A stretch of 24,535 nt of DNA, taken from a virus. Within the stretch, counting starts at the first letter, position 1; each line of letters starts with the position of its first letter. The position numbers and the translations under genes are program-made. The DNA lies in the IMG/VR virus record IMGVR_UViG_3300037155_000212, positions 1 through 24,535 of that record; one strand, given 5' to 3'. The notes under the pieces were generated by a model. The model was given only the letters and a program-made list of their open reading frames with translations, searched no databases and was not told the DNA's origin. Of the stretch, positions 1,094 through 24,056 are shown one piece after another.

Positions 1094-1411
1094 TTATTCA
1101 ATTCCATACTTGTTCTTGAGCATGGATCGTAGTTGATCTCGTTCGGTCTCGGGAGAGACGATGAACTTCGTGAGCGTGGCGAGGATGTCGCCATACGCTT
1201 TGTAGTACGAGTCCTTGGCCGGCGAGTTCTCGAAACTGCGGAGCTCGACATTGGCGCGTTCTAGTTCCCGCGGGAGGAACTTCTTGAGATCATCGATCGT
1301 GATGTCGCGCTTTTCGAGTATGACCGCCCATTGCATCCACGTTGCCTTCTCGGCCGGTTTGAGGTCGTCGATCGATTTGAGCCCTAGTTTTTGGAGGATT
1401 TGGTCGAGCAT
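1094..1411 (-). CDS. Helical hypothetical protein, 105 aa
   Basis: I chose the ATG at 1411 (MLDQILQKLG...) because it sits just after the TAA of the preceding gene and has GGAG nine bases upstream. The frame is open further upstream, but only into that gene. The protein is charged and predicted mostly helical, with no signal peptide or membrane segment: LKPAEKATW near residue 18, and a C-terminal helix ending near NKYGIE. It lies in the structural gene block, so a virion or assembly role is possible. I do not recognise the family. Confidence 0.6.
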   Translation of the reverse strand: MLDQILQKLGLKSIDDLKPAEKATWMQWAVILEKRDITIDDLKKFLPRELERANVELRSFENSPAKDSYYKAYGDILATLTKFIVSPETERDQLRSMLKNKYGIE

Positions 1412-1415
1412 GGTG

Positions 1416-2204
1416 TTAATCTCCCGCGAAGAATATGGCGTCCGAAGTAGTTGCGACGGGTGGTGCGGCTTCAAGTTCAGCAACAACCATTGCGCTTGCT
1501 GGAAGGTTATTGCTCGACACGGAAGTTTCCGTCATGGTGTAGCTCTGAATGGTCGTGCCTGTCTTTCGGCTCGTCACTGAACCAATCGCAGAAGCACTCC
1601 CAGATTGCGGCGTTGTATTTTGCAAGAGAAGCGTTTGCGATCCGCCCTGCGTATAGGTCGTCGTCGTGCTTGTCGTATACCCAAAAGTCGCTCCATCGAG
1701 AATCCACGAGTTTACCGCAAGCGTCGTGATCGATGCGGATTCGGCAGGATTCGTCGTTTGGCTGGTGGTCGTCGCTGCGCCGAACGGGGTTGATTGATTC
1801 ACATTGTTGTACGCATTAAGATGAATCGTCATTGCTTTTGCTGCCGAGCTGACGGTAGAAGATGCGACATTCGTTCCCGTGGGTGGATTTACGAGGTAAT
1901 ACACCGCATCATAAACATCCGTTCCATTTGCTTTTGTGGACGAAGTGAGAAGCGTCATGGGAACGCCGTTGAATGATGCGGTCGAAGTCACGCCGGCGGC
2001 GGCTGTGTAATAACCGACATTCGCATACAGCACCATATTCGTCCCGGCCGAGATTGTGATGGAACTCGTGACGGTCGTGTTTGACGAAGCACCAGCGAAA
2101 GCGCTCGAAGTGGCGTTCAGCGTGATAGCGGCGGCGTGCGCCCACGGTGATCTAATGAAGAATCCAACAAATAGAATGATGAATCCAAGAGCTATTTTTT
2201 TCAT
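1416..2204 (-). CDS. Secreted Ser/Thr-rich beta protein
   Basis: The 262-residue product starts with a clear Sec signal peptide: MKK, a hydrophobic run to about residue 18, and AHA-A cleavage near residue 25. The mature part is low in charge, very rich in Thr, Ser, Ala and Asn, and shows alternating hydrophobic patterns typical of a beta-sandwich. It resembles Ser/Thr-rich surface proteins common in Parcubacteria genomes. The ATG overlaps the stop of the 800-residue fibre-like gene (TAATG), so the two are probably made together. A signal peptide is unexpected in a phage structural block. The protein may be exported to the cell surface before or instead of joining virions. It could also be a captured host adhesin. 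Confidence 0.65.
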   Translation of the reverse strand: MKKIALGFIILFVGFFIRSPWAHAAAITLNATSSAFAGASSNTTVTSSITISAGTNMVLYANVGYYTAAAGVTSTASFNGVPMTLLTSSTKANGTDVYDAVYYLVNPPTGTNVASSTVSSAAKAMTIHLNAYNNVNQSTPFGAATTTSQTTNPAESASITTLAVNSWILDGATFGYTTSTTTTYTQGGSQTLLLQNTTPQSGSASAIGSVTSRKTGTTIQSYTMTETSVSSNNLPASAMVVAELEAAPPVATTSDAIFFAGD

Positions 2205-4606
2205 TATGGGCTGTAGTTAAGATTCGCACCGCCATAGCAATCCGTCGACGAAACTCCTGCGCAAACAAGTGACACAATATCCATTTTGCTTGCAGTCGTC
2301 GTAAGTGTCGGCGCAGTTCCGGCCGCCCACTGAACCGTGGAAGGCCATGTGATCGTCCGGGAGCCGGTGGAATCTTGTAAGAGCAGGAGTAGATACCGAG
2401 CGCCGGCATTCACATTGGAGAAGGTGAAGGTGGTTGATGTCGTCAATTTTATTTCCTGCACATTGCTATTGTTCCAATTGATCGCTGTCGTGCTGACCGT
2501 CGCCGTGCTCGAAGCAAAGAGCGAATAATACTGTGTCCCGGATGCTTCGACGACGCCTTTGAATGTCGTCGCCGCATTGAATGTCTGCGCCTGTGTCCAA
2601 GTGTTCGCAGTCGTGAGTTCGGTATTGAGGCCGCCAATCGGACTCCAATAGGTCGCATCATCTATCATTCGCACCGCTTGTCCGGGCGTAAGGGTCAGCA
2701 CGCTGGATGTCGCGCTGTTGTAGTAAACATAATCACTTCCATTCGTTGTGATCGTGCAATTTGTCGTTCCGCGATTCGCAAAGTCGAAATCAAGGCCGGT
2801 GTTATTTACTATCGTCGGGAGCGTGTAATTTACCGTCGAGGTTCCGTTGCAAACCTGGTAATTCGGAGAATATGCTTGAAGTGTTGAGCTTACCGTGGAT
2901 ACGGTGGGATTACCGATAAATCCATTGTAGTAAGTGAAGTTCCCCGTCAGGGCAAGTGTTGAGTCGAGGAATGATGGCGCGTTCGTCATAAACCCTGCGA
3001 CAGGAGCACGGGTTCCATAGAGATAGGTAACGCCCGGAACATCTCCCTGATTTGCAAAGCCAACGCTTGTTACCGTACTGCCCGAACCGAGGGTCATAAA
3101 GTCAGTCACGGTCGTAGCACCGATATAGGTATTCGCATCAGCAGACACGTCGAATAAATTAACCTTCACATTCGGACCGACCGACATCATGGTCGTCCAC
3201 GCGTTGCCACCGCCGTTGCCGTCGTTCAGGAATTGAGCATTGGCAAGTCCGATGTCCACCGAAGTATTCGGGTTGCCAGCGTTGGTTGTGATAGGGACAT
3301 AAGAAACCCATCCGCCACCTGCAGACCCAGGATTCTCCCATCGGCAATTCACTGCGTGGAAGGAATTGTTCTGTCCGTCATACCAGTCGAGATAAACTCC
3401 CGCATCGTCGAACGCGACACCGGAACACTCCCAATCGGCAAAGCCCGAAGTCTGCAAGTGAACCGCCCAACTGATCGCCGTCGCATTGTTGTTCGGCTGT
3501 GCGTCCGCAAACGTACTATTTGTCAGTCGCATTTCCTCGTCACCATTCGATGTCCCATCATCAAAGAGCAGTCCGCCCCCAGTGATGTTCGGGGCATTAA
3601 AATCGCTGATAGTCTGGTCGATGGTGAAGAAGTACACATTGTCGCCTTGATAGATGTTGTAGTAGAAACCTTTTACGTGGCTGTTTTTGAGGACAACCCC
3701 TTCCGCGCCCTGCGTGCCACCGAAATAGAATCCCGTCGATGAACCGTTGCTCGGCCCATTCAGGTAAATCCCGTCCACGCCCCATCCTTCGTGCTTCGAG
3801 TTCCCGATGTCGTAGGTGAATGCAGGGGTCGCGAGTGTACCGCCAACCGCTGCCGCTGATGTCAGGGTACTCGTTGTCGTAAGCCCCGCGTTCTTGTACA
3901 GAACGAACGTGTGGGTTGACGTAGAGAGATTACCGACGTAATAGAGTGTGCCTACGCCAAGCGTTGATACTGGGCCGACGTAAGTCACTGGCTCGCCCGT
4001 GAACGTGTCGAGTGCGGTCGTCGTTGCGTAGGTGATGACCTTCGTCGAAGTATTGACTGCTGTGATGCTGAAGTAGCTAGGCGTGAAGCTAAATATCGTT
4101 CCACCTCCCGGAATGCCTTTATCGAGAATGTACTTGCCATTGATATTGCTGATGACGGGGACGCTATGGTTATACCGATAGCTTCCGTAATCAATTTCCG
4201 TACTTGACGGAGCCGCCGTATAGATGTCGTTGTGACATTGGCCTGCATCATAATCGGGGTAACTCACACCGCACGTTGCGCCTGCGGCCAATGCCGTCGG
4301 AGAAGGGAACTGAACTTTCGTATTGAAAGTAAACGTGCCAGTCGCATTTCCCGGAAGATTGAGTGGATAGGTTAATGTGCTTGTCCCAGAGCTTCCACAA
4401 CCCGAGCCTGTACACGTTCCGGCGATGTTGAGGTTGTTGAATGAACCATTGACGGTCGAGCTACCGAGCGTGGTCGATGTGGAAAGCGGAAGGATGTTGT
4501 TACCGACTTTCTTTACGATCGGAGGGGTGGATACCTGGGCAAGTGCTACCCCGATAGAGGAAGCCAAGATGAGCGCCGGAAGGATGTATTTGAGTAATTT
4601 CTTCAT
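2204..4606 (-). CDS. Large beta-helix fibre/spike-like protein with signal peptide
   Basis: The 800-residue product has an N-terminal Sec signal peptide (MKKLLKYILPALILASS, likely cut after ALA near residue 23). A Thr/Ser/Gly-rich region follows. The middle (about 265-480) has repeated short strands such as GIYLNG, GFYFGG and VVLKNS, suggesting a right-handed parallel beta-helix of the pectate-lyase type used by phage tailspikes. The last 110 residues carry a DSTGSRTITWP-type domain that I know from phage fibre C-termini and CPR surface proteins. The likely role is receptor or surface binding. It begins two bases after the stop of the 4609-4905 gene and overlaps the next gene by TAATG. The signal peptide is odd for a virion fibre. 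It could instead be a secreted adhesin. There are few Cys, and no catalytic residues that I can place. Confidence 0.7.
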   Translation of the reverse strand: MKKLLKYILPALILASSIGVALAQVSTPPIVKKVGNNILPLSTSTTLGSSTVNGSFNNLNIAGTCTGSGCGSSGTSTLTYPLNLPGNATGTFTFNTKVQFPSPTALAAGATCGVSYPDYDAGQCHNDIYTAAPSSTEIDYGSYRYNHSVPVISNINGKYILDKGIPGGGTIFSFTPSYFSITAVNTSTKVITYATTTALDTFTGEPVTYVGPVSTLGVGTLYYVGNLSTSTHTFVLYKNAGLTTTSTLTSAAAVGGTLATPAFTYDIGNSKHEGWGVDGIYLNGPSNGSSTGFYFGGTQGAEGVVLKNSHVKGFYYNIYQGDNVYFFTIDQTISDFNAPNITGGGLLFDDGTSNGDEEMRLTNSTFADAQPNNNATAISWAVHLQTSGFADWECSGVAFDDAGVYLDWYDGQNNSFHAVNCRWENPGSAGGGWVSYVPITTNAGNPNTSVDIGLANAQFLNDGNGGGNAWTTMMSVGPNVKVNLFDVSADANTYIGATTVTDFMTLGSGSTVTSVGFANQGDVPGVTYLYGTRAPVAGFMTNAPSFLDSTLALTGNFTYYNGFIGNPTVSTVSSTLQAYSPNYQVCNGTSTVNYTLPTIVNNTGLDFDFANRGTTNCTITTNGSDYVYYNSATSSVLTLTPGQAVRMIDDATYWSPIGGLNTELTTANTWTQAQTFNAATTFKGVVEASGTQYYSLFASSTATVSTTAINWNNSNVQEIKLTTSTTFTFSNVNAGARYLLLLLQDSTGSRTITWPSTVQWAAGTAPTLTTTASKMDIVSLVCAGVSSTDCYGGANLNYSP

Positions 4607-4608
4607 GG

Positions 4609-4905
4609 CTAGAATAGATAGCTGTACGAATATCCGTCGCCGCTGGTCACGGCGTCGAACCAGACCTTTGAGAGATCGTCGATCCTGATCTGTACCGATT
4701 GAAACGGGACGAGCGGAGTGCCGATTCTTCCGCTCGCCGCTCCGACAACGTTCGAACCGCCATAGACGATCGTGCCGACGTTATTCTCATTGGCAGTGAT
4801 GGTGAGCTCCGCGCATGGGGTAGCTCCTGCGGCTAATTGCACAGCGGTTCCTGCGGTCGTGATTGATCCGTTCCCGCTTTTTAGATTTGTATATGGTTGA
4901 GGCAT
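4609..4905 (-). CDS. Small beta-rich phage structural protein, 98 aa
   Basis: The protein is Gly/Thr/Ser/Val-rich and clearly all-beta. It has the pattern SITTAGTAVQLAAGATPC near residues 14-31, then TIVYGGSNVV and a C-terminal SGDGYSYSYLF. Similar small proteins (N-terminal 'TAGTAVQL', central 'GTxVVGGSxVV', C-terminal 'DAxxSGxxVxxxY') are common in tailed-phage structural modules and may decorate the head or fibre base. It sits 16 bases after the portal gene and two bases before the fibre-like gene, which suggests coupled translation. There is no Shine-Dalgarno sequence; the start context is A/T-rich (ATAATCAAATG). The exact role is not known. Confidence 0.65.
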   Translation of the reverse strand: MPQPYTNLKSGNGSITTAGTAVQLAAGATPCAELTITANENNVGTIVYGGSNVVGAASGRIGTPLVPFQSVQIRIDDLSKVWFDAVTSGDGYSYSYLF

Positions 4906-4921
4906 TTGATTATTTATTGGT

Positions 4922-6622
4922 TTATTTTCCGACTGGTTGAGGCATGGAAGGCATTGGGGACATGGGCGGTGTTGCGCCTGGCGGACCCGGTGGCGCGCCC
5001 GGCAACGCTTGGGGCATTTGGTCGTCGAAGTTCATGACCTCGGTTGTCTCCTCCGGTGTGAGATCGAGCCAATCGAGCGTCTTCTGCTTCTGGATCTTCT
5101 GTAGCGGGACGTTGTTCGGGAACTGAGCGGTCGCTACCTGCATCTTTTGAATGGTCTTGAGGCTGTCGGATTCCTTATCAGCTTTCGAGCCTACCTTGAC
5201 CTTGTAGCCTTCGTTCGAGAACGTCTTTGCGAGGTCGAGCGTCTTCGCGGAGAACTTGCCGCTCGGGCCTTTCTTGTGGAGAGTAGGCTTCTCCATCGTG
5301 CCGCCATTCGCCATGACAAGCGCGATAAAGATATTCCCGATGTCCTCCCAATAGCGTTTGTGATATTTCGAAACGTTCTGCGCGCGTTCCTTTGCCTTTG
5401 CTGCCAATATCTGAATCTCCTGGGCGGTCTGCTGTGCGCCGCCCTCGTTCGGGTCTTGATCGCCATTCTCGATGGCTGTAGCGCCTGATACGCCCTGAAT
5501 CTCCCCGTCGATGAAATTGAGCTCGTTGAACACATCGCCCATCTCGGCAATCTGCACTGGATGAAGGACCTTGCTCGGGTCGCCTGGCAATGGATAGAAG
5601 CCGAATGGCGAAGGGTCATAACCTACCGGACTCCATCCTTCCTTGACGGTCGAGTCATAGAAATACATCCCATAGTTCGCGAGTGTGCCGTTCTCCACCT
5701 TCTGGCTCCAGCGTGCGTTCGCGACGAGGTTCAATCCGCGCACCGAATCCGCTCCGCCGTCGCTCCAAATGTCCGTACGCTCGGTATCGCCGGCCCACGA
5801 TGCCCATGAAAATACGTTAATACCCAAAATATCCTCAAGCGGCTTCTGCATGAGGATCTCTGATCCGTTCCCAGTCACGATGACCATGACGACATCTTTC
5901 TTCTTTGCGTCGTCCCATACTTTCTGTTGGCACTCGTTCAATTCCACATAGGTCTCTCCCAATACCGGATTCATCACATCGGGAACGCCGAGCTCATTCA
6001 TACGCTGTGCGCGATCTGAGACAGCGAGTGAGTTTTGGCCGGCTTTGATGAGTCCGGCTTGCGTGGCAAAGAACTCTTTGAGCCGAGTGACAGAGGCCGC
6101 ATCATACAGCGGATTTCGTTCTACGTCCGAGAGCGTGCGATAGATCCCAATGTGGGTAATTCTGCGGCCGGATTGAATGTCCCACGGATTCGCGTAGCGG
6201 TCCACGAACACGTCCTGCGGATCGATGACCTCCATGTGAAACCAGCCGTCGAGGATGTTCATCTTCATGAACGATCGGCCGTAGAGCCATTCCTGCTTGC
6301 GATCGACTTCCTCAAGGATGTCGAGCCTCAAGCGATCGGCGCACGCTTCCCAATAGGCATTCAGGAATAATTCCTTCTGCCCATCATTGCCTTTGTCCTC
6401 GTACTCGTTATCAACCGGCCAATTTGTCTGTGTGAGATAGGTCTTGAGCGTCTTCTTCATGTACGGCACATTGACGCTCTGCCGCTGGGTCAAACGGTTG
6501 ATGATGACCGTATCCCGATAAAGTTCATAGTTCGCGGTCCATTGCGGATGGCGACGCAAGCGCCAATTGAGATCGGCGAGATGATTCTTCTGGATTTGGT
6601 CGATGGTGAGGGAAGTTACCAT
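4922..6622 (-). CDS. Phage portal protein
   Basis: The 566-residue protein has the layout of P22-like portals. An N-terminal helical part (about 1-60) contains IDQIQKNHLADLNWRLRRHP and NRLTQRQSVNVPYMKKT. A clip/stem core follows with VIDPQDVFVDRYANPWDIQ, the portal hallmark for positioning the DNA channel, near residues 130-150. A long helical region contains EIQGVSGATAIENG and QTAQEIQILAAKAKERAQ. The C-terminal tail is Pro/Gly/Met-rich. Portals form a dodecameric ring at one head vertex, nucleate assembly and pass DNA driven by terminase. It lies between the terminase genes (with one opposite-strand gene inserted) and the structural block, the usual place. The GTA-ATG start lacks a Shine-Dalgarno site. 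A promoter candidate lies at 6650-6677. Confidence 0.85.
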   Translation of the reverse strand: MVTSLTIDQIQKNHLADLNWRLRRHPQWTANYELYRDTVIINRLTQRQSVNVPYMKKTLKTYLTQTNWPVDNEYEDKGNDGQKELFLNAYWEACADRLRLDILEEVDRKQEWLYGRSFMKMNILDGWFHMEVIDPQDVFVDRYANPWDIQSGRRITHIGIYRTLSDVERNPLYDAASVTRLKEFFATQAGLIKAGQNSLAVSDRAQRMNELGVPDVMNPVLGETYVELNECQQKVWDDAKKKDVVMVIVTGNGSEILMQKPLEDILGINVFSWASWAGDTERTDIWSDGGADSVRGLNLVANARWSQKVENGTLANYGMYFYDSTVKEGWSPVGYDPSPFGFYPLPGDPSKVLHPVQIAEMGDVFNELNFIDGEIQGVSGATAIENGDQDPNEGGAQQTAQEIQILAAKAKERAQNVSKYHKRYWEDIGNIFIALVMANGGTMEKPTLHKKGPSGKFSAKTLDLAKTFSNEGYKVKVGSKADKESDSLKTIQKMQVATAQFPNNVPLQKIQKQKTLDWLDLTPEETTEVMNFDDQMPQALPGAPPGPPGATPPMSPMPSMPQPVGK

Positions 6623-6713: not shown

Positions 6714-7214
6714 ATGCGATTGCCAGCGTGGTGGGACTTTATGTTTGTTTGGAAATTCGTCCAGTTCTTTGGCCCATTCGCGATCTCTATTGTGGCACTC
6801 GGGTACGTACTCTACGACCGTCATCCGCGATTGAAGATAAAGGCTAGGAAAGGGGATTGGTATACGCTGAAAGATTGCTCGCGCCCTCGTTATTCCGTTA
6901 TGTTCGGTGGCGTAGTTGAGATCTATAACGTCAGTTCAAGGGCTAATGCCATACGCGAGTATCGATTCTTGTGTAAGCGAGCGAAGGGAGATTGGGAGGA
7001 GATGGAAAGCGAGTACTACTTCGCGGTTCCGTTAATAGGCGCTGCATCCGAGAGTCTCAATCGAACGCCACTCATTCTCGCGCCTTATGCCGGAGTAGAT
7101 GCGAAGATTCAGGCATTTATAAAGAAACCGCGACCCGTTGAAATGCGAGTGAGAATTGAAGTCGAAGATTTATTCGGTAAGCGTTACCGCTTGGATGTTA
7201 CTGCGAAGTCGTAG
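6714..7214 (+). CDS. Membrane-anchored beta-domain protein, probable phage moron
   Basis: The 166-residue protein has one N-terminal membrane helix (about residues 8-33, FVWKFVQFFGPFAISIVAL). A cytoplasmic or surface domain follows with alternating strands (VEIYNVSSRA, VEMRVRIEVEDLFG) resembling an immunoglobulin-like sandwich. It is on the opposite strand between portal and terminase, with its own AGGTGA ribosome site and promoter-like boxes. It ends three bases before the converging terminase stop. Such extra genes in phage structural blocks are often expressed in lysogens. A single-helix membrane protein here might block superinfection or alter the host envelope, which is inferred from position and topology only. 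I do not recognise the family. Confidence 0.7.
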   Translation: MRLPAWWDFMFVWKFVQFFGPFAISIVALGYVLYDRHPRLKIKARKGDWYTLKDCSRPRYSVMFGGVVEIYNVSSRANAIREYRFLCKRAKGDWEEMESEYYFAVPLIGAASESLNRTPLILAPYAGVDAKIQAFIKKPRPVEMRVRIEVEDLFGKRYRLDVTAKS

Positions 7215-7217
7215 TCG

Positions 7218-8429
7218 TCACCCCGGCATTCCAGGGAACGGTCGGATGAGTCCGATAGTCGGTGCGGGCATCGGCATGGACTTCGCATTGTGGTTGTAAA
7301 CCGCGTAACGGATAGCGTCCATGCAGTGATCGTTCATCTTGATGGGTTCTTCTTTCGGCTTTTCCGGGTCGTACCGATAGCTGTTGAACTCGTCGATGAC
7401 GTCCTTGCACGTGTCAAAAACAAAAAGCTGGCGCTTGCGTATAAGCTCACGGACACGGTCAATACCAAGGACGACGTTTTTATCGACGTTCTTCACGTAG
7501 AATCCATGCCGCTTCATGTTCTCAATGCGGTCCGGCTCGGCGGGGTCGGGATACACGTCGCGGAAGTTCGTTTCGAGCTGAAGCTTCTTGAGATCTGACT
7601 CTATCTCGTCCTGGACTTTCCCTGACTCGTAATACTCGTTTGTGAGGAAATAGTTACTGTCGTTGTCTATTTTGATGACGACGCCGGCGGCTGCGTTATG
7701 GAATCCAAAGTCGAACCCGAGAATTACATCGCGCACGTTGATCGGCCTGGCCACGATGATCTGGTCTTTCGGAAGGTCATAGACCAGCCCCTCCATCTTT
7801 GAGAACTCTCCGCAATACCGGCGCGCGAACTCCTCCGGGCTCAACCGCTTCTTTTCTGCCTCGAAATGCTCCTTGGGAAAGTTGGGATTGTCGATGGATG
7901 CCCAGGTAAATACCGAGAGGCGCGAGTCCTCGTGCCGTTGCCACGGCAGATAGAACTCCTCGTGAAGCCAGTTCAGGGAATATGGAGTCGTGGTGATGAG
8001 GATCTGGCCGCCGGTCATGGCGACGCGCGACTTGAGAATCGTCCAGGCAAGGCGGGGCATCTGGCCGGCTTCGTCCACCCATTCCCAGTTGGCCGTGATG
8101 CCCTCAGCGCCGGGCGGCTGGTCGAACGATCGAACGAAAACCTTTCCGCCCGTGGGAAGCTCGATCTCGCCCTTTGCTTCCTTGTAATACTTCCGGAGCA
8201 TCGGGAAGTTCTGAAAGAATTTGTCGAGGGTGGATTGCTGGAGGATCTTGTACGTTGGCGCGCCGATGATGCCGTTCCCTTTTGGAAACTCCTGTATCTT
8301 CTTGCCGGCCCAAATGGAACCGAGGAATGTCTTTCCCGACTGGACTCCCGCTATTGCAGCGCCGAATTGCGTTTGAAAATTGAACGCGGCGAATTGCTGG
8401 CCGAATAGCTCAATTCTTTTGTCCTCCAT
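7218..8429 (-). CDS. terL: Terminase large subunit
   Basis: The 403-residue ATPase-nuclease drives DNA into the head and cuts it. Visible motifs: Walker A GVQSGKT at 28-34, Walker B plus catalytic Glu in WEWVDE at 115-120, and the coupling motif ITTTPYS at 145-151. The C-terminal RNase H-like nuclease shows GFDFGF (Asp240), PDPAEPD (Asp295 or Asp300) and NDHCMDAIRY (Asp367/Asp371). All key acidic residues appear present. It is on the short side for TerL, with little sequence before Walker A. It overlaps the small-subunit gene by 20 bases, as expected for coupled translation. The stop lies three bases from that of the converging plus-strand gene. Confidence 0.92.
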   Translation of the reverse strand: MEDKRIELFGQQFAAFNFQTQFGAAIAGVQSGKTFLGSIWAGKKIQEFPKGNGIIGAPTYKILQQSTLDKFFQNFPMLRKYYKEAKGEIELPTGGKVFVRSFDQPPGAEGITANWEWVDEAGQMPRLAWTILKSRVAMTGGQILITTTPYSLNWLHEEFYLPWQRHEDSRLSVFTWASIDNPNFPKEHFEAEKKRLSPEEFARRYCGEFSKMEGLVYDLPKDQIIVARPINVRDVILGFDFGFHNAAAGVVIKIDNDSNYFLTNEYYESGKVQDEIESDLKKLQLETNFRDVYPDPAEPDRIENMKRHGFYVKNVDKNVVLGIDRVRELIRKRQLFVFDTCKDVIDEFNSYRYDPEKPKEEPIKMNDHCMDAIRYAVYNHNAKSMPMPAPTIGLIRPFPGMPG

Positions 8430-8775
8430 CCTTTTGAACGATCGTTAGATTGAAGGGAAGATTGGCGGTAGTAATGTCCGTCTCAGTACGATCGCGATAA
8501 TCGTCTTTGAAAGCGTTCTTGAGGTAGAAAATTGCTCCCGTAGCGGCGTTGGCCGCAAGCCGCTGTACCCACGCCGTTTCGATATAGCTCTCAAGACGCT
8601 TTAAGGCGTCGGGAAATCGCTTCTTATATTCGTTATACGTATCACGGCTGATGTCGAGCTCATAGCAAAGTCCGGCCTTATTCGGCATGAGATGTTTTTC
8701 ATCGCACATCTTGAAATAGGCGTTTACCGCAGTATTGAATACATCTTCTGATTTGTATTTAGGAGGTCGTGCCAT
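8410..8775 (-). CDS. terS: Terminase small subunit
   Basis: The 121-residue protein recognises phage DNA and hands it to the large subunit. It has an N-terminal helix-turn-helix-like part (ISRDTYNEYKKRFPDALKRL, about 43-62), then AWVQRLAANAATGAIFYLKN and KDDYRDRTETDIT, the typical pattern of phage small-terminase/DNA-packaging families. The 121-aa size is normal. It overlaps the large subunit by 20 bases and the preceding 88-aa gene by 17 bases. There is no obvious Shine-Dalgarno site, so translation probably depends on coupling to the upstream gene. Confidence 0.85.
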   Translation of the reverse strand: MARPPKYKSEDVFNTAVNAYFKMCDEKHLMPNKAGLCYELDISRDTYNEYKKRFPDALKRLESYIETAWVQRLAANAATGAIFYLKNAFKDDYRDRTETDITTANLPFNLTIVQKDGGQKN

Positions 8776-10305: not shown

Positions 10306-10460
10306 CATTCGCTGATTCGTATAAGCAGTTCTTCTTTGGTTGCCGCGCGACTGATGATAATTGGCCGCTCACCCTTCCTGCTCAAGATCGCGCCCCATCC
10401 CTGGAGCGGGTGAAACCAGCAATCCCATCCGTTGTAGGTGAAATCAATGCGGGCGGTCAT
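10302..10460 (-). CDS. Small hypothetical protein, 52 aa
   Basis: The frame starts at ATG 10460, overlapping the TGA of the HerA-like gene as ATGA, and ends in a TAG that overlaps the converging stop. The product MTARIDFTYNGWDCWFHPLQ... contains two Trp-rich beta strands, then KGERPIIISRAATKEELL and a C-terminal helix. It is compact enough to fold on its own. The role is unknown; the coupling suggests it works with the HerA-like ATPase. Confidence 0.55.
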   Translation of the reverse strand: MTARIDFTYNGWDCWFHPLQGWGAILSRKGERPIIISRAATKEELLIRISEC

Positions 10461-12232
10461 AAGAAGAGCAACGATTTTGCTTTGACCTTTCCCGAGTCGT
10501 AATCGATTAGGCCGAAAGACTTCAGCCGGCCGCGGGGGTTCGTGTAACCCGTGCTGCGTTCATGCATGTATCCTGCCATCGCGCAGAGGTCGACGTTTGA
10601 GATTCCCTCCGGGTATGTTTCCAACAATGGCGAGAGCAATTTCCGTTCGGGACCGTCAAGCTTAGCGAGGACTGCTTGATGCAACGCTTCCTCCGTGAGC
10701 GGAACATCCGGACTGGACGCGAGTGGTCTTCCCTCCTCGGTGAGATATACCGAACCGGCGGAGTATTCGATAAGCCCTTTCGATTTGAGGTAGCCCCGAG
10801 GGTTCGTATAACCGGTAGAGCGGAAGTGACTGTAGCCGGAAAGAAAGGCTACAAGCTCATTTGGTGGTTTTTGGTTGCCGATGGATTCGCACCAGGCGAG
10901 AGCGTTCAATACGCGCTGCTCCGGACCGGTAAGACCAGAATCGAAGGCAGATGTTGCCGGCTCCACTCTGTGGGGACTAGCGGTCGCAGACGCTGGTGGC
11001 CGTGCGACGGGAGAACTGATCGAAAGCTTCTGCTTAGTAGGGAGTTCGAGAGCCATTGATTCGGGAGAACTGACACCCTCCACTTTTGTAATTATGGGAC
11101 CGAGAGCGGTGATTACCTTTTTAAGATCCTCGGCATATTTGATCCAAGCATTGAGAAGGACCTGCCATTCCCGGTTCGTTTTCGTCTGTTCATCTCTCTC
11201 TTTTTGAATCTCCTGATTGGCATTCCGTTCGATCTCTTTACGGACGGTTTCAACCTGTTTGGAAACCGCTGCTTCTATGGCAACGGGATTCGCTCCCGGC
11301 GCTTTCTCAAGGATGCTCTTTTCGCGTTGAAGCGTTACGATTCGGAGACGTAGCTCGTCCACCGTTTTTGCTTCTTTCTCTGCCTCTTGGGGTAAGTCTG
11401 CAAGCTTGCCAAGTATCTTCTTTATCCCATCTGTGGGAGGCACGACTTTCGTGAGTGATCGTGAACCCACCTTTGGGTGAGTGGTGTGAACGTCTCCAAC
11501 GGTAACCTTCTGGACTTCGTCGGATATTGCAGGGCCAAACGCATAGAACTCGCCCGGCTTCAATGCTCGTAATGACAGCATCTGCTCGCGGGAAGTGAAC
11601 CCGAGCTCGTCCGCCGCGCGCTTCATATCGATGTCCTGTGATGCCCGGCCAATGAGCTTGTTGTTGCACTCTGCCGCTGCATCTTTGCTCAATTTTGAGA
11701 TGCGCTGGGTGGCAAGGATAGCTGAGAATCCCCGTTTGCGACCGAGAGCACAAAGACCGATCACTGCGTCCATCGCTTCGCTTTGACCCTTTTCTGGCGC
11801 GTACGTGTGTGCTTCGTCAATGACGACGATGCAATCGTGCCAGAGGTCCTTTGGTGCATTGATAAGCGATTCAAGGAACAGTCGTACAAAACGCTTCCGC
11901 TCCTGTGGGTGAAGCTCATAGAGATCGATGATCGCGGAGACCTTGAGTTCCAAAAGCTTGCGGGCGAGTAGCGCTGCTGAACGGGGTTCGGCAGGCGTGT
12001 CTCCTCCCTTGCCGGCGAGAACATAATCGTATTTCTCCCGGAGCGTAGCGAACTCCCCCTCTGAATCAAGGATGATGTGCTGGACCTTACCGTGCGATTG
12101 TTCGAGGATACGACGAAGCGCCCACGATTTTCCTCCTCCGGAGTTCGCCTGCACAAGAAGCTTGCTCTCGATGAGCTTGGGAAGATCTATCTCTGTCTGA
12201 TTGTTGAGTTTTATGAAGTGATTCACTGGCAT
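10457..12232 (-). CDS. HerA-like ATPase with duplicated C-terminal winged helix
   Basis: I chose the ATG at 12232, which overlaps the previous stop as TAATG and gives 591 residues. It is a DUF87/HerA-type hexameric DNA motor. Walker A is QANSGGGKSW (28-37), Walker B IVVIDEAHTYAP (135-146), and ATQR (174-177) is a sensor motif. Residues about 282-355 form a coiled coil. The C-terminus holds two copies of a winged-helix-like unit, about 434-500 and 525-585, each with RSTGYTNPRG and K(S)xGLIxY. Such proteins pump or remodel DNA, as in end resection with NurA or plasmid and viral DNA handling. No NurA-type nuclease is seen here. The 108-aa winged-helix gene before it and the coupled 52-aa gene after it may be partners. 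Confidence 0.85.
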   Translation of the reverse strand: MPVNHFIKLNNQTEIDLPKLIESKLLVQANSGGGKSWALRRILEQSHGKVQHIILDSEGEFATLREKYDYVLAGKGGDTPAEPRSAALLARKLLELKVSAIIDLYELHPQERKRFVRLFLESLINAPKDLWHDCIVVIDEAHTYAPEKGQSEAMDAVIGLCALGRKRGFSAILATQRISKLSKDAAAECNNKLIGRASQDIDMKRAADELGFTSREQMLSLRALKPGEFYAFGPAISDEVQKVTVGDVHTTHPKVGSRSLTKVVPPTDGIKKILGKLADLPQEAEKEAKTVDELRLRIVTLQREKSILEKAPGANPVAIEAAVSKQVETVRKEIERNANQEIQKERDEQTKTNREWQVLLNAWIKYAEDLKKVITALGPIITKVEGVSSPESMALELPTKQKLSISSPVARPPASATASPHRVEPATSAFDSGLTGPEQRVLNALAWCESIGNQKPPNELVAFLSGYSHFRSTGYTNPRGYLKSKGLIEYSAGSVYLTEEGRPLASSPDVPLTEEALHQAVLAKLDGPERKLLSPLLETYPEGISNVDLCAMAGYMHERSTGYTNPRGRLKSFGLIDYDSGKVKAKSLLFL

Positions 12233-12558
12233 TAGAAAAGAGTTTGTTCTGCGTCTTCTTTCGGCTTGAACGCCGGCGGCAACACTGGATGCTTGGCTTT
12301 CCACACTTTCGCCATATTTCCCGTGATCTGACAGTGCCGCGCGCCTGCTTCATGGACAAGACTTCCCAGTTGTTCACTGCGAAGTTCTTTTATGCGAGGC
12401 GTGATTACATTGATGGGAAGATTCAAGGCGTGGGCGATTTCGGTATTAGTGTGCGGCCCGGCGTTTCTCAAGTATTCAAGTACCAGGGCCTGACGCGCGC
12501 CGAGATTCTTATGAACCTTCGATAGAGCTTGGAGTGATGTAATTTGAATATCGTTCAT
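12232..12558 (-). CDS. Winged-helix DNA-binding protein, 108 aa
   Basis: Residues about 17-75 form a winged helix: LGARQALVLEYLRNAGPHTN, then TEIAHALNLPINVITPRIKE as the recognition-helix region, then a wing with SLVHEAG. A short polar tail follows. MarR-, ArsR- and similar repressor-like folds share this plan, and there is no metal or ligand motif. It is translationally coupled to the HerA-like ATPase by TAATG. It may be a local repressor or a DNA-loading partner of the ATPase. No Shine-Dalgarno site precedes the ATG. Confidence 0.7.
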   Translation of the reverse strand: MNDIQITSLQALSKVHKNLGARQALVLEYLRNAGPHTNTEIAHALNLPINVITPRIKELRSEQLGSLVHEAGARHCQITGNMAKVWKAKHPVLPPAFKPKEDAEQTLF

Positions 12559-15859: not shown

Positions 15860-17101
15860 TTACGCTGAAGACGCAAGGAAGCGATTTATCTTTTCAATCA
15901 CATCTTTCCGTTTTGCTCCGTAGCGTTGAAGCGAAGCCTTTATGAGTTTCGTTGCGTTCGCTTCGTCGCCGCGTTTTTGAATGGTAGGCCAGCCGATGAT
16001 TCTCCGAGCTTCGGGCGCGTCCGTGATCGTCCGGCAGTAGAACTGGTAGCGCGGAAGGGAGGTGATGTGCGTTGCCTGGATCTGTTCCTCGTTCCAATTC
16101 TCCTGGATTGCGCGGGCGTCTTCCCCGGAAACGTTAAAGGTGATCTGCGTGGGACAGTTTGAGAACACGTCCTTTGCAAATGGGAGCTGGTACATTCCCT
16201 GCGAGGCCAAGACAAGCGTGATGCCATATTTGCGTGATTCGGCCAGGAGAGTCCCGAATCTGCCGCCGTGGATGAAATTGTGAACCTCATCGGCCACGAG
16301 CATGAATGGCGGCCGGATTTTCTGCTTTTCTCTCTTGAGCGCGGAGATAGATACCATCGAAACGATGAGCGAACCGAGGATCTGGGCTATCTCTTCCCCG
16401 AGCCGTCCTTTTGAAAACCGGCACACGACAATCTTCTTCTTGTTCATTATCTCCAGAAAGTCGAGGGATTGGGGTTGTCCGATGATGGGAATGATGGACG
16501 GCCGGAGCAATTTGCCGACTTTATTGATCGGAGGACTGAATTTGGACATCTGCTCCGAGTTCCTCAATTTTTCATCGTACTGTTCCTTGAACATTTGAAG
16601 CAAAGGGTTTTCGGTCGCGGCCAACACCTTTTCCCTGAACTTGTCATCTGCCATGAACCGGAAGATGTGAACGGGGGTCGGGTGGTCATAGTACTCGCAT
16701 ACCGCGTCAATGGCGTTGATGATTACCCTGGCGGATTCGTCGCCCCATGCCGAGCCGGCAAGTGATTTGAATGTTGTAAAAAGCGACTCTTTGCCGAGCT
16801 CTAATTCTTCCGGGGAGTTGAAATGGAGTGGGTTAAACGGCGGGACGAGCGAAGCATCAGGGTCTATCCATATAAAGTCGCGCATCCGGCTCTTGGGGAT
16901 GAGTTTGGCGATCTGATCGGCAGTATCGCCGTGAGGGTCAATAAAAAGGCCGCCGTTGCCCTGGCGGATGTGTTCAATGAAGAGGTTTACGAGCAAGGTG
17001 GACTTGCCCATGCCGCTCATTCCGGATATGTTCACGTGTTTGGTCGAATCTATAAAGGACTCGTTGCGCGTTATTGAATCGCGGCCAATGCTTATGTCCA
17101 T
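15860..17101 (-). CDS. VirD4/TraG-like (DUF87) DNA-transfer ATPase, short form
   Basis: The 413-residue protein begins almost directly with the ATPase core and lacks the usual membrane anchor. Walker A is GMSGMGKS (27-34), then GLFIDPHGDTADQIAKLIP (about 51-69), Walker B FMLVADEVHNF (266-276) and the sensor LASQG (298-302). These are the marks of coupling ATPases of type IV secretion and conjugation systems, which feed DNA to the transfer channel, and of related mobile-element ATPases. A C-terminal domain (about 350-413) is basic. With a second ATPase and a replication-relaxation protein nearby, DNA transfer is the best guess. A palindromic operator-like site lies 23 bases upstream of the start. 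Confidence 0.8.
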   Translation of the reverse strand: MDISIGRDSITRNESFIDSTKHVNISGMSGMGKSTLLVNLFIEHIRQGNGGLFIDPHGDTADQIAKLIPKSRMRDFIWIDPDASLVPPFNPLHFNSPEELELGKESLFTTFKSLAGSAWGDESARVIINAIDAVCEYYDHPTPVHIFRFMADDKFREKVLAATENPLLQMFKEQYDEKLRNSEQMSKFSPPINKVGKLLRPSIIPIIGQPQSLDFLEIMNKKKIVVCRFSKGRLGEEIAQILGSLIVSMVSISALKREKQKIRPPFMLVADEVHNFIHGGRFGTLLAESRKYGITLVLASQGMYQLPFAKDVFSNCPTQITFNVSGEDARAIQENWNEEQIQATHITSLPRYQFYCRTITDAPEARRIIGWPTIQKRGDEANATKLIKASLQRYGAKRKDVIEKINRFLASSA

Positions 17102-18185: not shown

Positions 18186-18383
18186 CTATGCGTTAAAGGC
18201 AACCGACTTGTTCGCCCACATTGCGGCCTCTTCTAGCTTGGTAATTGCCAACGAGGTTTCGCGAGCTGGGGGAAGTGTTTGCAATACTTCGTAGAACGCT
18301 TTGGCCGCCGCCATCACTTCTTGTATCTTCGCCGATTGCTCAGGCGAAACCTTTTGATATTCGAACGGATTTTTGGTGTCCAT
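18186..18383 (-). CDS. Predicted Acb2/Tad1-type anti-defence protein, 65 aa
   Basis: The protein is one helical hairpin. Residues about 15-35 form helix one (EQSAKIQEVMAAAKAFYEV). The link LPPARETSLAITKLEEAAMW is followed by ANKSVAFNA. The 'LPPxREtSLAiTKLEEAxMWANxxiA' pattern is what I know from the Acb2/Tad1 hairpin domain family. Acb2 sponges bind cyclic oligonucleotide signals of CBASS; Tad1 binds the gcADPR signal of Thoeris. It would sequester a host immune messenger during infection or transfer. The assignment is by motif memory, and the ligand cannot be told. The ATG overlaps the replication-relaxation stop as TAATG, so it is coupled to the transfer operon. Confidence 0.7.
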   Translation of the reverse strand: MDTKNPFEYQKVSPEQSAKIQEVMAAAKAFYEVLQTLPPARETSLAITKLEEAAMWANKSVAFNA

Positions 18384-19210
18384 TAGATAGTTAAAAATGA
18401 GTACGACCTTTGATTCAAGTCTTTCGGTGTGGCAAAAATCTCCCCGCCAATATCGCTCTTATACGCCGCTTCACTCGCAAGCCAGAACATCCGATGGTTC
18501 AATTCTTTGTTCAACTGCTTCAAGAGGTTCTCGCGGCGCTCGTCCGTGCGCTGGACGACGATCACCCTGAACTGCCGAAAGTCCGTCCACTCTTTTTCGC
18601 ACGCATCCGTCCCGTAATAGGTGTAATACTTCCCGAGCTTGCGCATGATGGACGGCTCGCCGTCGCGGTAATGGCCTATTTTCGCCCGCTCCATTTCGAG
18701 GAAATAGTACAGGGTATTCTTTCCTTCCGGCTTCGCGGGGTCGGTGATGGCGAACATCGAATCAGGTGAAACGGTACACTTCAAGTCTGACTGTTGCCAA
18801 TAGAGCTTCAGCTTATTCTTCGTGGAGAATTTCTTGAGTGCGATATGAAAAAAGGAAATCTCAAGTTCGTGGTCTAAGGTTCTCTGAGAGTGTTCGTCAA
18901 AGGTCTTGGCATCGGGCCAGATTGTCTCGACGAACTTCACGCCTTTATCGGAGAGCCCATAGACGTAGGTAACGCCGCCGCTCTCACGATCAAAGTCTAA
19001 ATAGGGAAGGCGGTTTACCAGTCCTGCTTTATAAAGAAGTCCGAGAGTATGCCGGACGGAACGCTTGTCATTGTCGTTGGGTTCCCGTGATCGGATGAGG
19101 CGCGCGACATCGTTGGTTCTCAGGCAGAAGTATTCGGCTAACAGTTCAATCGCTTCTCTCTTAGCGCTCGTGATGCGACGGCGGGGCTCCTGGCTGGGGG
19201 TCTTGGTCAT
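18383..19210 (-). CDS. Replication-relaxation family protein
   Basis: I chose the ATG at 19210 (MTKTPSQEPRRRITSAKREA); the frame runs on to 19324 but only inside the upstream ATPase gene. It gives 275 residues. Residues about 14-90 form a winged helix (LLAEYFCLRTNDVARLIRSR, then SVRHTLGLLYKAGLVNRL) followed by GGVTYVYGLSDKGVKFVE, the hallmark of the Replic_Relax family. Family members occur on conjugative plasmids such as those of Bacillus and in actinobacterial elements, next to FtsK/VirD4-type ATPases. They are thought to assist DNA relaxation or act in place of a classical relaxase. The central and C-terminal parts include YYFLEMERAKIGHYR. It overlaps the ATPase gene by 50 bases. Confidence 0.8.
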   Translation of the reverse strand: MTKTPSQEPRRRITSAKREAIELLAEYFCLRTNDVARLIRSREPNDNDKRSVRHTLGLLYKAGLVNRLPYLDFDRESGGVTYVYGLSDKGVKFVETIWPDAKTFDEHSQRTLDHELEISFFHIALKKFSTKNKLKLYWQQSDLKCTVSPDSMFAITDPAKPEGKNTLYYFLEMERAKIGHYRDGEPSIMRKLGKYYTYYGTDACEKEWTDFRQFRVIVVQRTDERRENLLKQLNKELNHRMFWLASEAAYKSDIGGEIFATPKDLNQRSYSFLTI

Positions 19211-20705
19211 TCCCTTCAGTATGCGGTATCTCAAGGGAATTACCAGAGGGGTTATCCCCAGGGCGTTTCTGGCTGTATTCAGCGGAAGTATTGGCCTTAA
19301 GGCGAGCAGCCATTGATTCGGCACGGTGTTTATCTATCGGCGGCTTGTCGGCTGTCCACTTGAATATCGGCTGGGTTCCGGCAACACGAAAGACCGCCTG
19401 GTACTTGGGTATCCGCGCGAGATGGTTCACGTTGTAGGGATGGACTATGTTTGTAAATAACGAGAGTTGTTCTTCGATGTGGAAGATGATGTAAGTCCCC
19501 ACATTCCCGAAGATCGCGTGTCTAATGTCCGGCGTGAGTTGGTCGATATATTGATTGCCCACGGTAAGCCTCAATCCCAATCCGCCGGCCACAGATAAGA
19601 TCTTGGCGAAGGATGATGTCTGGAAGTTTTCGAACTCATCCACAAATAAGTGGTAAGGGATAATCTCTGAGGGGTCGAGCTTTGTTCGTTTGAATGCGGC
19701 TTGTTGGAATTGGGATACGAGGAGTGCGCCGTAAATCTCTCGCGGCTCGCCGATGCCGCCGAGATCAACAAGGATAATCCGCTTGTCATTCATGGCTTTG
19801 GATATATTCAATCCGCCGCCGCTGAGAATTGTTTTCAGACTGTCGTTCTGGGTGAAGTCCGTCATGCGCGACGTGAGCGGCTCGTATTCTTTTGGCGCGG
19901 GCCAATTGTTCTGCCAATACTCCCATCGTGTGGGATCGATGGTCTTCAGTGCGTCGAGTATTGCTTGCTTTCGCCGGGGAAGAGTGAAGATGTCCTCGAT
20001 GTCAGTGAAGGATGTACCGGGAACCTTGAGGAGGGTGTAAATGAGCCGGGTGAGTATCGGCTCTGCCCGCTTGAGCGTCGTGTCGCCCCGCAATACCATC
20101 TGTTTAAGATCGCCGACGAGAAACTCCGGGTTTGATACTCCGCCAAGGATGTCGAGGGGGACCGGGTGTTCGAGGTCGAGATAAATACAATCTGTTACGC
20201 GGTTTTCGGGGAGAAGCCCACAAATATCTCTTATCAATCCTCCTTTGGGGTCGAGGACTGCAACGCCTTTGCCATGTGCGATGTCGTGCATGACGAGTTG
20301 AAGTATCTGGGTAGATTTCCCATGTTGCGTCATACCTGGAATAAAAATATGCTGTGCACGGACGTTTGAAGGTATCGGCGTGGGGTAATTGGCTGACTGG
20401 ATTACAGGGGTGGGGTCGCGTCGTTCGCGCTCTGCTTCGCGTTCGCGCTTGCGGCCTTCCTCGCGACGGATGCGTTCTTTTTCGCGCTCGATTTGTAGAC
20501 GAAGCTGATCCACGGTCGTTTGATGTTGCTTTGCTTCCTTCTCAAGAGCCTTTCTGTGTTCGACCTTTTCTCGCTCTTGCTTCTCCCACTCTTGCCGAGC
20601 TGGTTTCAAAAAGAGCTGACGGTCTTCCCAAGCGCAATTGTCTGGAATATGCACGCGCCTTTCGACGTAGTCGTTCCAACTCTCGGGAGGATCCCACTCG
20701 CTCAT
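19161..20705 (-). CDS. VirD4/TraG-like DNA-transfer ATPase with coiled-coil N-terminus
   Basis: The 514-residue protein has a charged coiled coil at about 40-97 in place of membrane helices. The ATPase core follows: Walker A GMTQHGKS (124-131), VAVLDPKGGLIRDI (148-161), Walker B HLFVDEFENFQ (352-362) and GNQYIDQLTPDIR (383-395). The pattern is that of conjugative coupling ATPases. The preceding gene, overlapping by ATGA, encodes a two-helix membrane protein with its own coiled coil, so anchor and motor may be two separate chains that pair. The C-terminal tail is Pro/Asp-rich and disordered. Its partners are probably the replication-relaxation protein and the second ATPase at 15860. Confidence 0.8.
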   Translation of the reverse strand: MSEWDPPESWNDYVERRVHIPDNCAWEDRQLFLKPARQEWEKQEREKVEHRKALEKEAKQHQTTVDQLRLQIEREKERIRREEGRKREREAERERRDPTPVIQSANYPTPIPSNVRAQHIFIPGMTQHGKSTQILQLVMHDIAHGKGVAVLDPKGGLIRDICGLLPENRVTDCIYLDLEHPVPLDILGGVSNPEFLVGDLKQMVLRGDTTLKRAEPILTRLIYTLLKVPGTSFTDIEDIFTLPRRKQAILDALKTIDPTRWEYWQNNWPAPKEYEPLTSRMTDFTQNDSLKTILSGGGLNISKAMNDKRIILVDLGGIGEPREIYGALLVSQFQQAAFKRTKLDPSEIIPYHLFVDEFENFQTSSFAKILSVAGGLGLRLTVGNQYIDQLTPDIRHAIFGNVGTYIIFHIEEQLSLFTNIVHPYNVNHLARIPKYQAVFRVAGTQPIFKWTADKPPIDKHRAESMAARLKANTSAEYSQKRPGDNPSGNSLEIPHTEGNDQDPQPGAPPSHHER

Positions 20706-22388: not shown

Positions 22389-24056
22389 TTATGCGGACTT
22401 TGCCGACAGTCCGAGAGACTGCTTGCGCCAGTCCATCGGGATTAAGGCGAGCAAATCGTCGAGCGAGAGTGGAAGCGACTCAGGTCGGGTCATCATGTTT
22501 TCAATCGACTGCGGGCTCAGTTGAACCAGCTTCATCTGCATGCGGATAAAGCGGGGAGACACACCGTCGATGCCGGCCAATTGGGCGATGTTACTGGATT
22601 TTCCCGTAGTGATCTGCTCGTACCAACGACGCGCGCGAGCAATGGCTTTGAGAATGGCCTGGCGGCTGGCGTCAGTGGTGATATTTGTATCGCCGACGAC
22701 AAGGCGTACCGCGCGGCCCTGCCGAACATGTCGGAAGGGACATTCAATCGACGCAATCTGCGGAAGATCGATAGAAATTTCACCGCAGCCAAGAATCTCA
22801 TTGAGGAGCGCTGGCACGCGCAGGCGAATCTCGACGTAAGTCTGGTGGATAACAACGCGATCGATGACAGTCCTTAGAAACTGCGCGCGGTCCGCGGTGA
22901 TGCGCTCGCGCCAACTCTGCGCCGTCGCAGCAGCTTGCGCAATGATCTGCGCGAAAATACCTTCTGGCGGGGCCACGGTTGTCTCATCACGAAACGCGGC
23001 AAGCAACTGGGTAGGCGTTTGTAGCCATTCAAGCATGCGATCAACCACAGCCTTTTCGAGATCATGCGCCGGGATGCGGCCTGGGGCGTTGCTCGTTCCG
23101 ATCTTCTTAATTACGGCCTGCGAGGTGTAATAGCGATAACGGCGGCCGTTCTTGTTGGCATGTGTCGGCGTGTAGAGCGTGCCGATAGCATCGAAAAGAA
23201 TGCCGGTCAGAATACTCTCCTTGGTGGCGCGCACCTTACGCCGCTTGCCTTGAATGTTTTCGTCGAGCACCGCCTGCACTTTGTCCCAGGTTCCGCGATC
23301 TATGATGGCGGGATGCTCTCCAGGATAAGTTGCCTTCTTGTGTTTGATCAAACCGATATAGTGCGGATTGCGCAGCATCATGTACAGCGGACCGCGGAAG
23401 AAGTGATTACCCCGTCGGCTCATGATGTTGTTCTCGCACAGCCAGTCATGCAGGCTATGCACATTGCCGAGGCGCAGAAACTCGTCGAAGATTGTGCGCA
23501 CCGTGACGGCTTCCGGTTCGTTGATGATGAGTTTCCGGTCCTTGGCCGTGTATCCGAGCGGTACGGTGCCGCCCATCCACATTCCCTTCTTCTTCGAGGC
23601 AGCAATCTTGTCACGTATGCGCTCGCCAGTGACCTCGCGTTCGAACTGCGCGAAGGATAGAAGGACATTGAGCGTGAGGCGACCCATCGAGGACGTGGTA
23701 TTGAACTGCTGTGTGACCGAGACGAAGCTGACGTTGAACTTATCGAATTGCTCGACGAGTTTGGCGAAGTCCGCCAGCGAGCGGGTCATCCGGTCAACCT
23801 TGTAAACAACCACTACCGAAACCTTGCCTGCTTGAATGTCGGCCATCAGTCGCTTCAATGCCGGTCGCTCCATGTTGCCGCCGGAGAAACCACCGTCGTC
23901 GTAGTCCGTGGCTATTAGTCGCCAGCCCTCGTGCTGTTGGCTCTTTACGAAGGCCTCGCAGGCCTCGCGCTGAGCGTCGAGCGAGTTGAAAGATTGCTCG
24001 AGACCTTCTTCCGAGGATTTGCGGGTGTAGATGGCGCAACGAATCTGGTTGCTCAT
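22389..24056 (-). CDS. Large serine recombinase
   Basis: I chose the ATG at 24056, which overlaps the DUF2924 stop as ATGA and has AAGGAG upstream. It gives 555 residues. The resolvase domain (about 5-150) shows AIYTRKSSEEGLEQSF with the catalytic Ser at 14 or 15, DDGGFSGG, and VVVYKVDRMTRSLADF with the active-site Arg residues. A recombinase domain follows (about 180-280, GTVPLGYTAKDRKLIINEPE). Next comes the position of the usual zinc ribbon, but it has no Cys pairs (TPTHANKNGRRYRYYTS), as in a proteobacterial subfamily. The long C-terminus binds DNA. It cuts and joins DNA at att sites, probably for the module or island itself. GC is higher than in the phage part. Confidence 0.9.
   Translation of the reverse strand: MSNQIRCAIYTRKSSEEGLEQSFNSLDAQREACEAFVKSQQHEGWRLIATDYDDGGFSGGNMERPALKRLMADIQAGKVSVVVVYKVDRMTRSLADFAKLVEQFDKFNVSFVSVTQQFNTTSSMGRLTLNVLLSFAQFEREVTGERIRDKIAASKKKGMWMGGTVPLGYTAKDRKLIINEPEAVTVRTIFDEFLRLGNVHSLHDWLCENNIMSRRGNHFFRGPLYMMLRNPHYIGLIKHKKATYPGEHPAIIDRGTWDKVQAVLDENIQGKRRKVRATKESILTGILFDAIGTLYTPTHANKNGRRYRYYTSQAVIKKIGTSNAPGRIPAHDLEKAVVDRMLEWLQTPTQLLAAFRDETTVAPPEGIFAQIIAQAAATAQSWRERITADRAQFLRTVIDRVVIHQTYVEIRLRVPALLNEILGCGEISIDLPQIASIECPFRHVRQGRAVRLVVGDTNITTDASRQAILKAIARARRWYEQITTGKSSNIAQLAGIDGVSPRFIRMQMKLVQLSPQSIENMMTRPESLPLSLDDLLALIPMDWRKQSLGLSAKSA

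Follow-up and report, generated by a model that had tools for sequence, protein, structure and literature searches.

Fibre-like proteins with predicted Sec signal peptides in the structural gene region of tailed phages

Two adjacent genes in the structural region of a tailed phage encode a fibre-like protein and a smaller partner, and both products are predicted to leave the cytoplasm through the Sec pathway. The genes lie in a 24,535-base linear virus record, referred to here as the window. Evident in the sequences compared are a mobile late-operon cassette, conserved signal peptides, a cysteine-pairing bias, and homology to virion-type fibre domains. The interpretation that we favor, at about even confidence, is that a tailed phage, which probably infects Acidobacteriota, encodes the pair in a swappable late-operon cassette, and that the pair would be produced late, exported by Sec, and active on surface glycans.

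The gene pair and its signal peptides

Both reading frames are present on the minus strand and overlap by TAATG, as an earlier note on this DNA had described, and its placement of the pair in a structural region also holds: the two genes are located between the portal and scaffold-like genes, with terminase genes nearby (Table 1). Related phages were collected by portal and capsid searches, and dozens of them are syntenic with the window. In these phages (family 1, i.e., those with a portal related to that of the window), the gene order is TerL, portal, slot 1, 105-aa protein, scaffold, capsid, 165-aa protein, slot 2, and 562-aa protein; the capsid gene of the window phage falls past the end of the fragment. 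No promoter-like (sigma-70-type) site was found ahead of the pair on the minus strand between positions 760 and 9000, with a consensus that may differ from that of the host, so the pair should be expressed together with the late genes.

Table 1. Coordinates of the features discussed (positions in the window)
Feature	Position	Strand	Basis or remark
Fibre-like protein, predicted exported, 800 aa	2204..4606	-	ORF and signal scoring
Predicted Sec/SPI-type signal peptide of fibre, MKKLLKYILPALILASSIGVALA/Q	4538..4606	-	Scorer; conserved in L007, L008, L010, L011, L012, L016
Fibre body, residues 92-657	2636..4333	-	61% identical to the signal-bearing fibre of L002 (third phage type)
C-terminal tail-fibre domain, residues 697-793	2228..2518	-	Sequence match
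Partner, predicted exported, 262 aa, Thr/Ser-rich, 0 mature cysteines	1416..2204	-	ORF and signal scoring
Predicted Sec/SPI-type signal peptide of partner, MKKIALGFIILFVGFFIRSPWAHA/A	2133..2204	-	Scorer
Partner domain, residues 38-218	1551..2093	-	HMM family shared with related phages' non-exported adhesins (their N-terminal domain)
TAATG, stop/start overlap from fibre to partner	2202..2206	-	
98-aa protein without signal peptide, precedes every slot-1 signal-bearing fibre	4609..4905	-	
Portal, upstream border of slot 1	4922..6622	-	Position and synteny; no family match
Conserved 105-aa protein, downstream border of slot 1	1094..1411	-	
Scaffold-like protein, 228 aa	1..687	-	
TerS	8410-8775		PHROGs/Pfam
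TerL	7218-8429		PHROGs/Pfam

Signal peptides were scored with a home-made rule for the n-, h-, and c-regions, which is crude. It flags both proteins strongly, in agreement with the Sec signal peptides read in the earlier note. The fibre begins with MKKLLKYILPALILASSIGVALA, followed by the cut and QVST, and the partner with MKKIALGFIILFVGFFIRSPWAHA, followed by the cut and AAIT. Both N-termini have the features of Sec/SPI substrates (a positive n-region, an apolar core of 14-18 residues, and AxA ahead of the cut), with no lipobox and no twin arginine.

The slot-1 fibre carries a signal peptide in 7/7 distinct family-1 phages (the window, L007, L008, L010, L011, L012, and L016; L008 was found again as L009 and L057). 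All seven fibres start with MK..(L)K...(P)A.I...., then an AxA-like site, and their ATG lies 1-12 nt past the stop of the 98-aa gene; in some relatives, an open frame runs upstream of the MKK start. The fibre bodies diverge strongly among the seven phages and the N-terminal signal peptide is kept. A fibre search using the N-terminus alone recovered only phages that had already been found. None of 417 core proteins (TerL, portal, p98, p105, scaffold, capsid, p165, and p562) scores as having a signal peptide at its annotated start, and the two p165 frames that do score do so solely at an internal Met. Likewise, no signal peptide was found on the slot-2 LamG/beta-sandwich adhesins or on the few other slot-1 proteins of relatives.

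Several other features of the gene neighborhood were recorded. The window encodes three TraG/VirD4- or HerA-like ATPases (15860-17101, 19161-20705, and 10457-12304, minus strand; Pfam TraG-D_C, TrwB_AAD_bind, DUF87), found here in a tailed phage and accompanied by a Replic_Relax protein (18383-19324); the region next to the L022 prophage has a P-loop ATPase as well, with genes in a similar short order (L042:13244-15692). At 22389-24535 (minus strand), there is a serine recombinase beside DUF2924 (E 2e-42), and this pair may serve phage integration. Between TerL and the portal, the extra genes vary, and some of them encode signal peptides or membrane segments (L012:3744-4253, L025:7524-8531, and window 6714-7214, the last on the opposite, plus strand). 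The N-termini of TerL differ widely (403-aa, 402-aa, and 457-aa types) despite close portals in L007, L008, L010, L014, and L016, suggesting terminase swaps.

Relatives, protein bodies, and cysteine content

Signal-bearing fibres also occur in a second group, family 2, which is the siphovirus family of L003/L004 and is unrelated to family 1. It was assigned to the siphoviruses by a tape-measure protein (a tail hub protein is also present) and is represented by 29 loci from a search with the L004-type portal, which has only distant matches among known isolates (50,697 phage records searched for fibre and portal). L003/L004 encode a 1108-aa fibre and a 250-aa partner, both with signal peptides. 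A signal-bearing fibre directly follows the portal region in nearly all family-2 loci that have downstream sequence, the exceptions seen being L149 (a LamG protein) and L162, and in seven loci it is followed by a signal-bearing second gene. Separately, just upstream of the family-2 scaffold-like gene there is a conserved protein of ~186 aa whose N-terminus carries a Gly-rich transmembrane segment (L149:7270-7830, L166:18392-18952, L169:16393-16953, and others), and a similar protein of ~172 aa is found in the L002 family.

Phage L002, a third type, encodes two signal-bearing fibres and a signal-bearing LamG protein. We considered whether this is a general trait of L002-type phages and rejected the idea, as no signal-bearing fibre was found in 27 relatives outside the contig of L002 itself. 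L002 also encodes its own cpn60/GroEL-type chaperonin (L137:1104-2630; PF00118, E 6e-34).

The larger protein of the window had been described as beta-helical and fibre-like. The fibre-like part of that description stands, based on a match to tail-fibre PHROGs that involves only the last ~100 aa (phrog_9017, E 1e-10). The C-terminal domain is 82% identical to that of the signal-bearing L003/L004 fibre and 55% identical to that of a fibre from L005, which has no signal peptide and no cysteine in 798 aa (vs. 10 cysteines in the window fibre). If those ten paired in order, which is a guess, the bonds would be 65/70, 112/124, 394/421, 586/617, and 782/790. The beta-helix fold is only indirectly supported: the window fibre has no Pfam match and, by sequence and profile search, no PDB match, and a pectate-lyase-like match below threshold (PF12708, E 1.7e-4) was obtained for the fibre of L010 only. 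Neither an enzyme active site nor any homologue whose active site is known was found for the fibre. The window fibre, the window portal, and the L011 fibre have 0 matches in the 50,697 records of known isolates. The signal-bearing fibres of both families have in common a C-terminal tip in which a pair of cysteines is conserved (C...YVY...TKPxFCQ). This tip is absent from every protein without a signal peptide that was compared.

A direct search of the relatives' records for the partner came up empty, but an iterated profile search did find its domain, in same-family adhesins that lack signal peptides (L015, L022, L025, L059, L072, L088, L100, and others; E 1e-39 to 1e-58). Some of these adhesins match minor-tail PHROGs. 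Thus, a virion-type domain exists both with and without an export signal. In addition, the partners of the window (1416-2204, minus strand) and of siphovirus L144 (L144:10678-11430) end in a common tail, (S/P)DA(I/L)FFAGD, and a protein of L005 that has no signal peptide ends in the similar LLLAGD, possibly a sorting or docking tag.

Cysteine content offers a test of export that does not depend on the signal-peptide call, because parity and density are measured on the mature body. In an oxidising compartment, the cysteines of exported proteins should pair, so even counts mark disulfide-bonded, exported proteins; exported bacterial proteins have been described as favoring even cysteine numbers (PMC7678975). 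The mature cysteine number is even in 27/28 complete signal-bearing fibres and in 24/25 when these are made non-redundant (binomial p ~8e-7, with independence between rows only approximate). The only fibre with an odd number, that of L146, is a truncated version of the L147 fibre, in which 18 cysteines are present. By comparison, cysteine-containing core proteins are 76 even vs. 120 odd, and cysteine-containing fibres without signal peptides are 12 even vs. 12 odd. The fibre group therefore displays the parity bias of Sec-exported proteins. Median cysteine density is also higher in signal-bearing fibres (n=9; 13.7 per 1000 aa) than in fibres without signals (n=27; 3.7 per 1000 aa; p=3e-5), and charged residues are scarcer (7.7% as opposed to 13.1%, p=6e-5). 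Counts are even in 7/9 signal-bearing partners; the window partner lacks mature cysteines, which makes parity uninformative there and leaves the signal peptide to argue for its export.

Considering the conservation of the signal peptide, the 0/417 core proteins, and the 24/25 even counts, the signal-peptide reading is, as far as sequences can tell, not a product of chance. Export of the fibre and partner is well supported as a prediction, by three independent lines: N-terminal signals that are conserved, the lack of such signals on core proteins and on proteins of the alternative slot, and the even-cysteine bias.

Other family-1 relatives have no slot-1 fibre and instead carry a LamG/beta-sandwich adhesin without a signal peptide in slot 2, or else one of a few slot-1 proteins without signals. 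The slot-2 adhesin is missing in four phages with the signal-bearing fibre and present in 18 others (Fisher p=1.4e-4, uncorrected for kinship). On the portal tree, this exclusivity is represented by 1-2 independent evolutionary pairs only, and we regard it as only suggestive. The phages with signal-bearing fibres do not form one clade (AU p=0.0036), and well-supported branches force at least two changes, so the cassette has moved and the swap has recurred.

Probable hosts

The earlier note presumed an epibiotic host, and the evidence lends this premise no support. We consider it probable that the host of the window phage belongs to the Acidobacteriota. One related prophage, its portal 54% identical, is embedded in a 156-kb Thermoanaerobaculia (Acidobacteriota) contig, alongside chromosomal genes for MacB, an M16 peptidase, phosphomannomutase, and transketolase, and an Acidobacteriaceae genome bin includes an 11-kb contig with a 75% relative. 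Relatives of the window serine recombinase (E<=1e-60) were found in 12/111 Terriglobia vs. 1/96 Patescibacteria genomes. For the tyrosine integrase found in L004, L007, L010, and L014, about 9/81 Terriglobia genomes contain relatives that match over nearly the full length (35-58%, E 1e-50 or better), and the matches in Patescibacteria are all partial and XerC-like; by this comparison, the integrase carried by the relatives is of Terriglobia type.

Both phage families do have Patescibacteria relatives, including a 41%-portal relative in a Paceibacterota bin. We rejected Patescibacteria as the host of the window phage because the fibre C-terminal matches there lack signal peptides, and the strong family-2 portal matches are prophages without a signal-bearing fibre after the portal. 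Host copies of the pair, a possibility raised in the earlier note, did not materialize: a search of host genomes for the fibre body found none, and the C-terminal domain alone, without a signal peptide, occurs in 5/379 Patescibacteria and 1/297 Acidobacteriota genomes. Shine-Dalgarno-like motifs ahead of phage genes are near background in both families at all loci checked; being near background in every group, they were uninformative and were dropped as a host discriminator.

Possible roles of the pair predicted to be exported

We suggest that the fibre and partner would be made with the late genes, alongside the capsid proteins, from a swappable cassette, and that cleavable Sec signals would take them out of the cytoplasm during late infection, before the burst. 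The fibre would fold with disulfide bonds after export, and the pair would then bind or trim surface glycans at or outside the envelope, rather than joining virions in the cytoplasm. Such action on glycans may stop the dying cell, debris, or neighbors from trapping progeny or admitting rival phages. In this scheme, Sec translocation, cleavage, and activity at or beyond the envelope are what we infer. The idea of exported phage adhesins, as first put forward, thus survives with regard to predicted export (signal conservation, absence from core and alternative-slot proteins, and cysteine parity) and finds no support for its epibiotic host; coating of the infected cell, blocking of superinfection, and changed attachment are possible consequences.

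A role outside the virion is favored by the signal itself and by family 2, in which L004 has a separate 466-aa protein, cysteine-free and without a signal peptide, near the end of the tail genes, making the exported fibre there an extra. Pulling the other way, the downstream contigs of the family-1 phages L007, L010, and L011 showed no further fibre, which is unexpected if the virion lacks the exported one. It could instead be a virion receptor-binding fibre that is exported, disulfide-matured in the periplasm, and docked on the particle at lysis. This would fit a gene within the morphogenesis operon that encodes the only fibre candidate seen in family 1, the alternation with a non-exported adhesin in the other slot, the recurrence of the swap, a partner domain that elsewhere is a virion-type minor-tail domain, and a conserved mature N-terminus with a variable body, which is the layout of a virion-anchored tailspike. 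However, L004 has the other tail-end candidate, the exclusivity comes down to the one or two independent pairs noted above, and we know of no precedent in a tailed phage, which counts against it. We judge assembly in two compartments to be somewhat unlikely, and we doubt its general form, in which two unrelated tailed-phage families would build capsid and tail in the cytoplasm, send disulfide-bonded receptor-binding fibres through Sec to the periplasm, and join them at lysis.

It is improbable that the pair is lysogenic-conversion cargo, that is, a prophage-made adhesin that alters the sticking of lysogens or biofilm. The window serine recombinase and the tyrosine integrases of relatives indicate that the phages are probably temperate, and the phage tail proteins PblA/PblB serve as surface adhesins (Streptococcus literature). 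However, a moron would be expected to have its own promoter and terminator and to be expressed from the prophage, and no promoter-like site was found ahead of the pair (with the sigma-70-type consensus possibly not that of the host), which makes this explanation less likely, as do the tight coupling to the 98-aa gene and the TAATG overlap, which suggest late co-expression. More improbable still is that the N-terminal apolar segment is an uncleaved virion or membrane anchor, or that the start codon lies elsewhere, as the crude rule and the upstream frames of some relatives might allow, given that the MKK start always lies 1-12 nt after the upstream stop, that the AxA/Q site is kept, and that cysteine parity and density belong to the mature body.

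Several described proteins can be set beside the pair, exported and glycan-directed in the reading that we favor. Among tailed-phage proteins, the tail fibres and tailspikes of virions (phrog_9017 and other PHROG families; P22-type tailspikes) resemble the window fibre in C-terminal domain homology, structural-gene position, a low-charge Ser/Thr/Asn/Gly-rich body, and a conserved N-terminus with a variable body. They are proteins without export signals that assemble in the cytoplasm, whereas the window fibre carries a conserved Sec-type signal peptide and paired cysteines. The LamG/beta-sandwich adhesins of the same families (for example, L015, L019, and L149) occupy the same slots and have the homologous partner domain, yet, unlike the signal-bearing fibres, they have no signal peptide, few cysteines, and no even-number bias. 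PblA/PblB of streptococci are phage tail-type proteins that act at the cell surface, as proposed here, in unrelated hosts; they are not known to have signal peptides and reach the surface via lysis.

Phage-encoded surface proteins (PblA/PblB) and exported tailspike-like enzymes are thus already known. Among the latter, WceF of Pantoea stewartii acts on glycans after export and folds as a trimeric beta-helix similar to that of tailspikes (PMC7949094), a fold that is assumed for the window fibre. It is similarly made for export and acts on surface polysaccharide, but it is a cellular gene of a biofilm operon with a Tat signal, in contrast to a phage late-operon gene with a Sec-type signal. A survey of the target proteins of phage DGRs reported no detectable signal peptides (PMC6199706). 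In the open-access literature searched, we found no description of a conserved Sec-tagged fibre in a tailed-phage structural operon.

Tailed phages are not known to export fibre-like proteins before the burst, and the signal-tagged fibres of these soil bacteriophages contradict the working rule that phage fibre-type proteins are without export signals. For metagenomic studies, this means that a signal peptide alone does not make a fibre gene cellular. The recurrence of the signal-bearing fibre in two unrelated phage families points to a strategy rather than an accident, and raises the question of whether tailed phages secrete fibres during infection and whether such fibres would be surface weapons and shields or virion parts that mature outside the cytoplasm.
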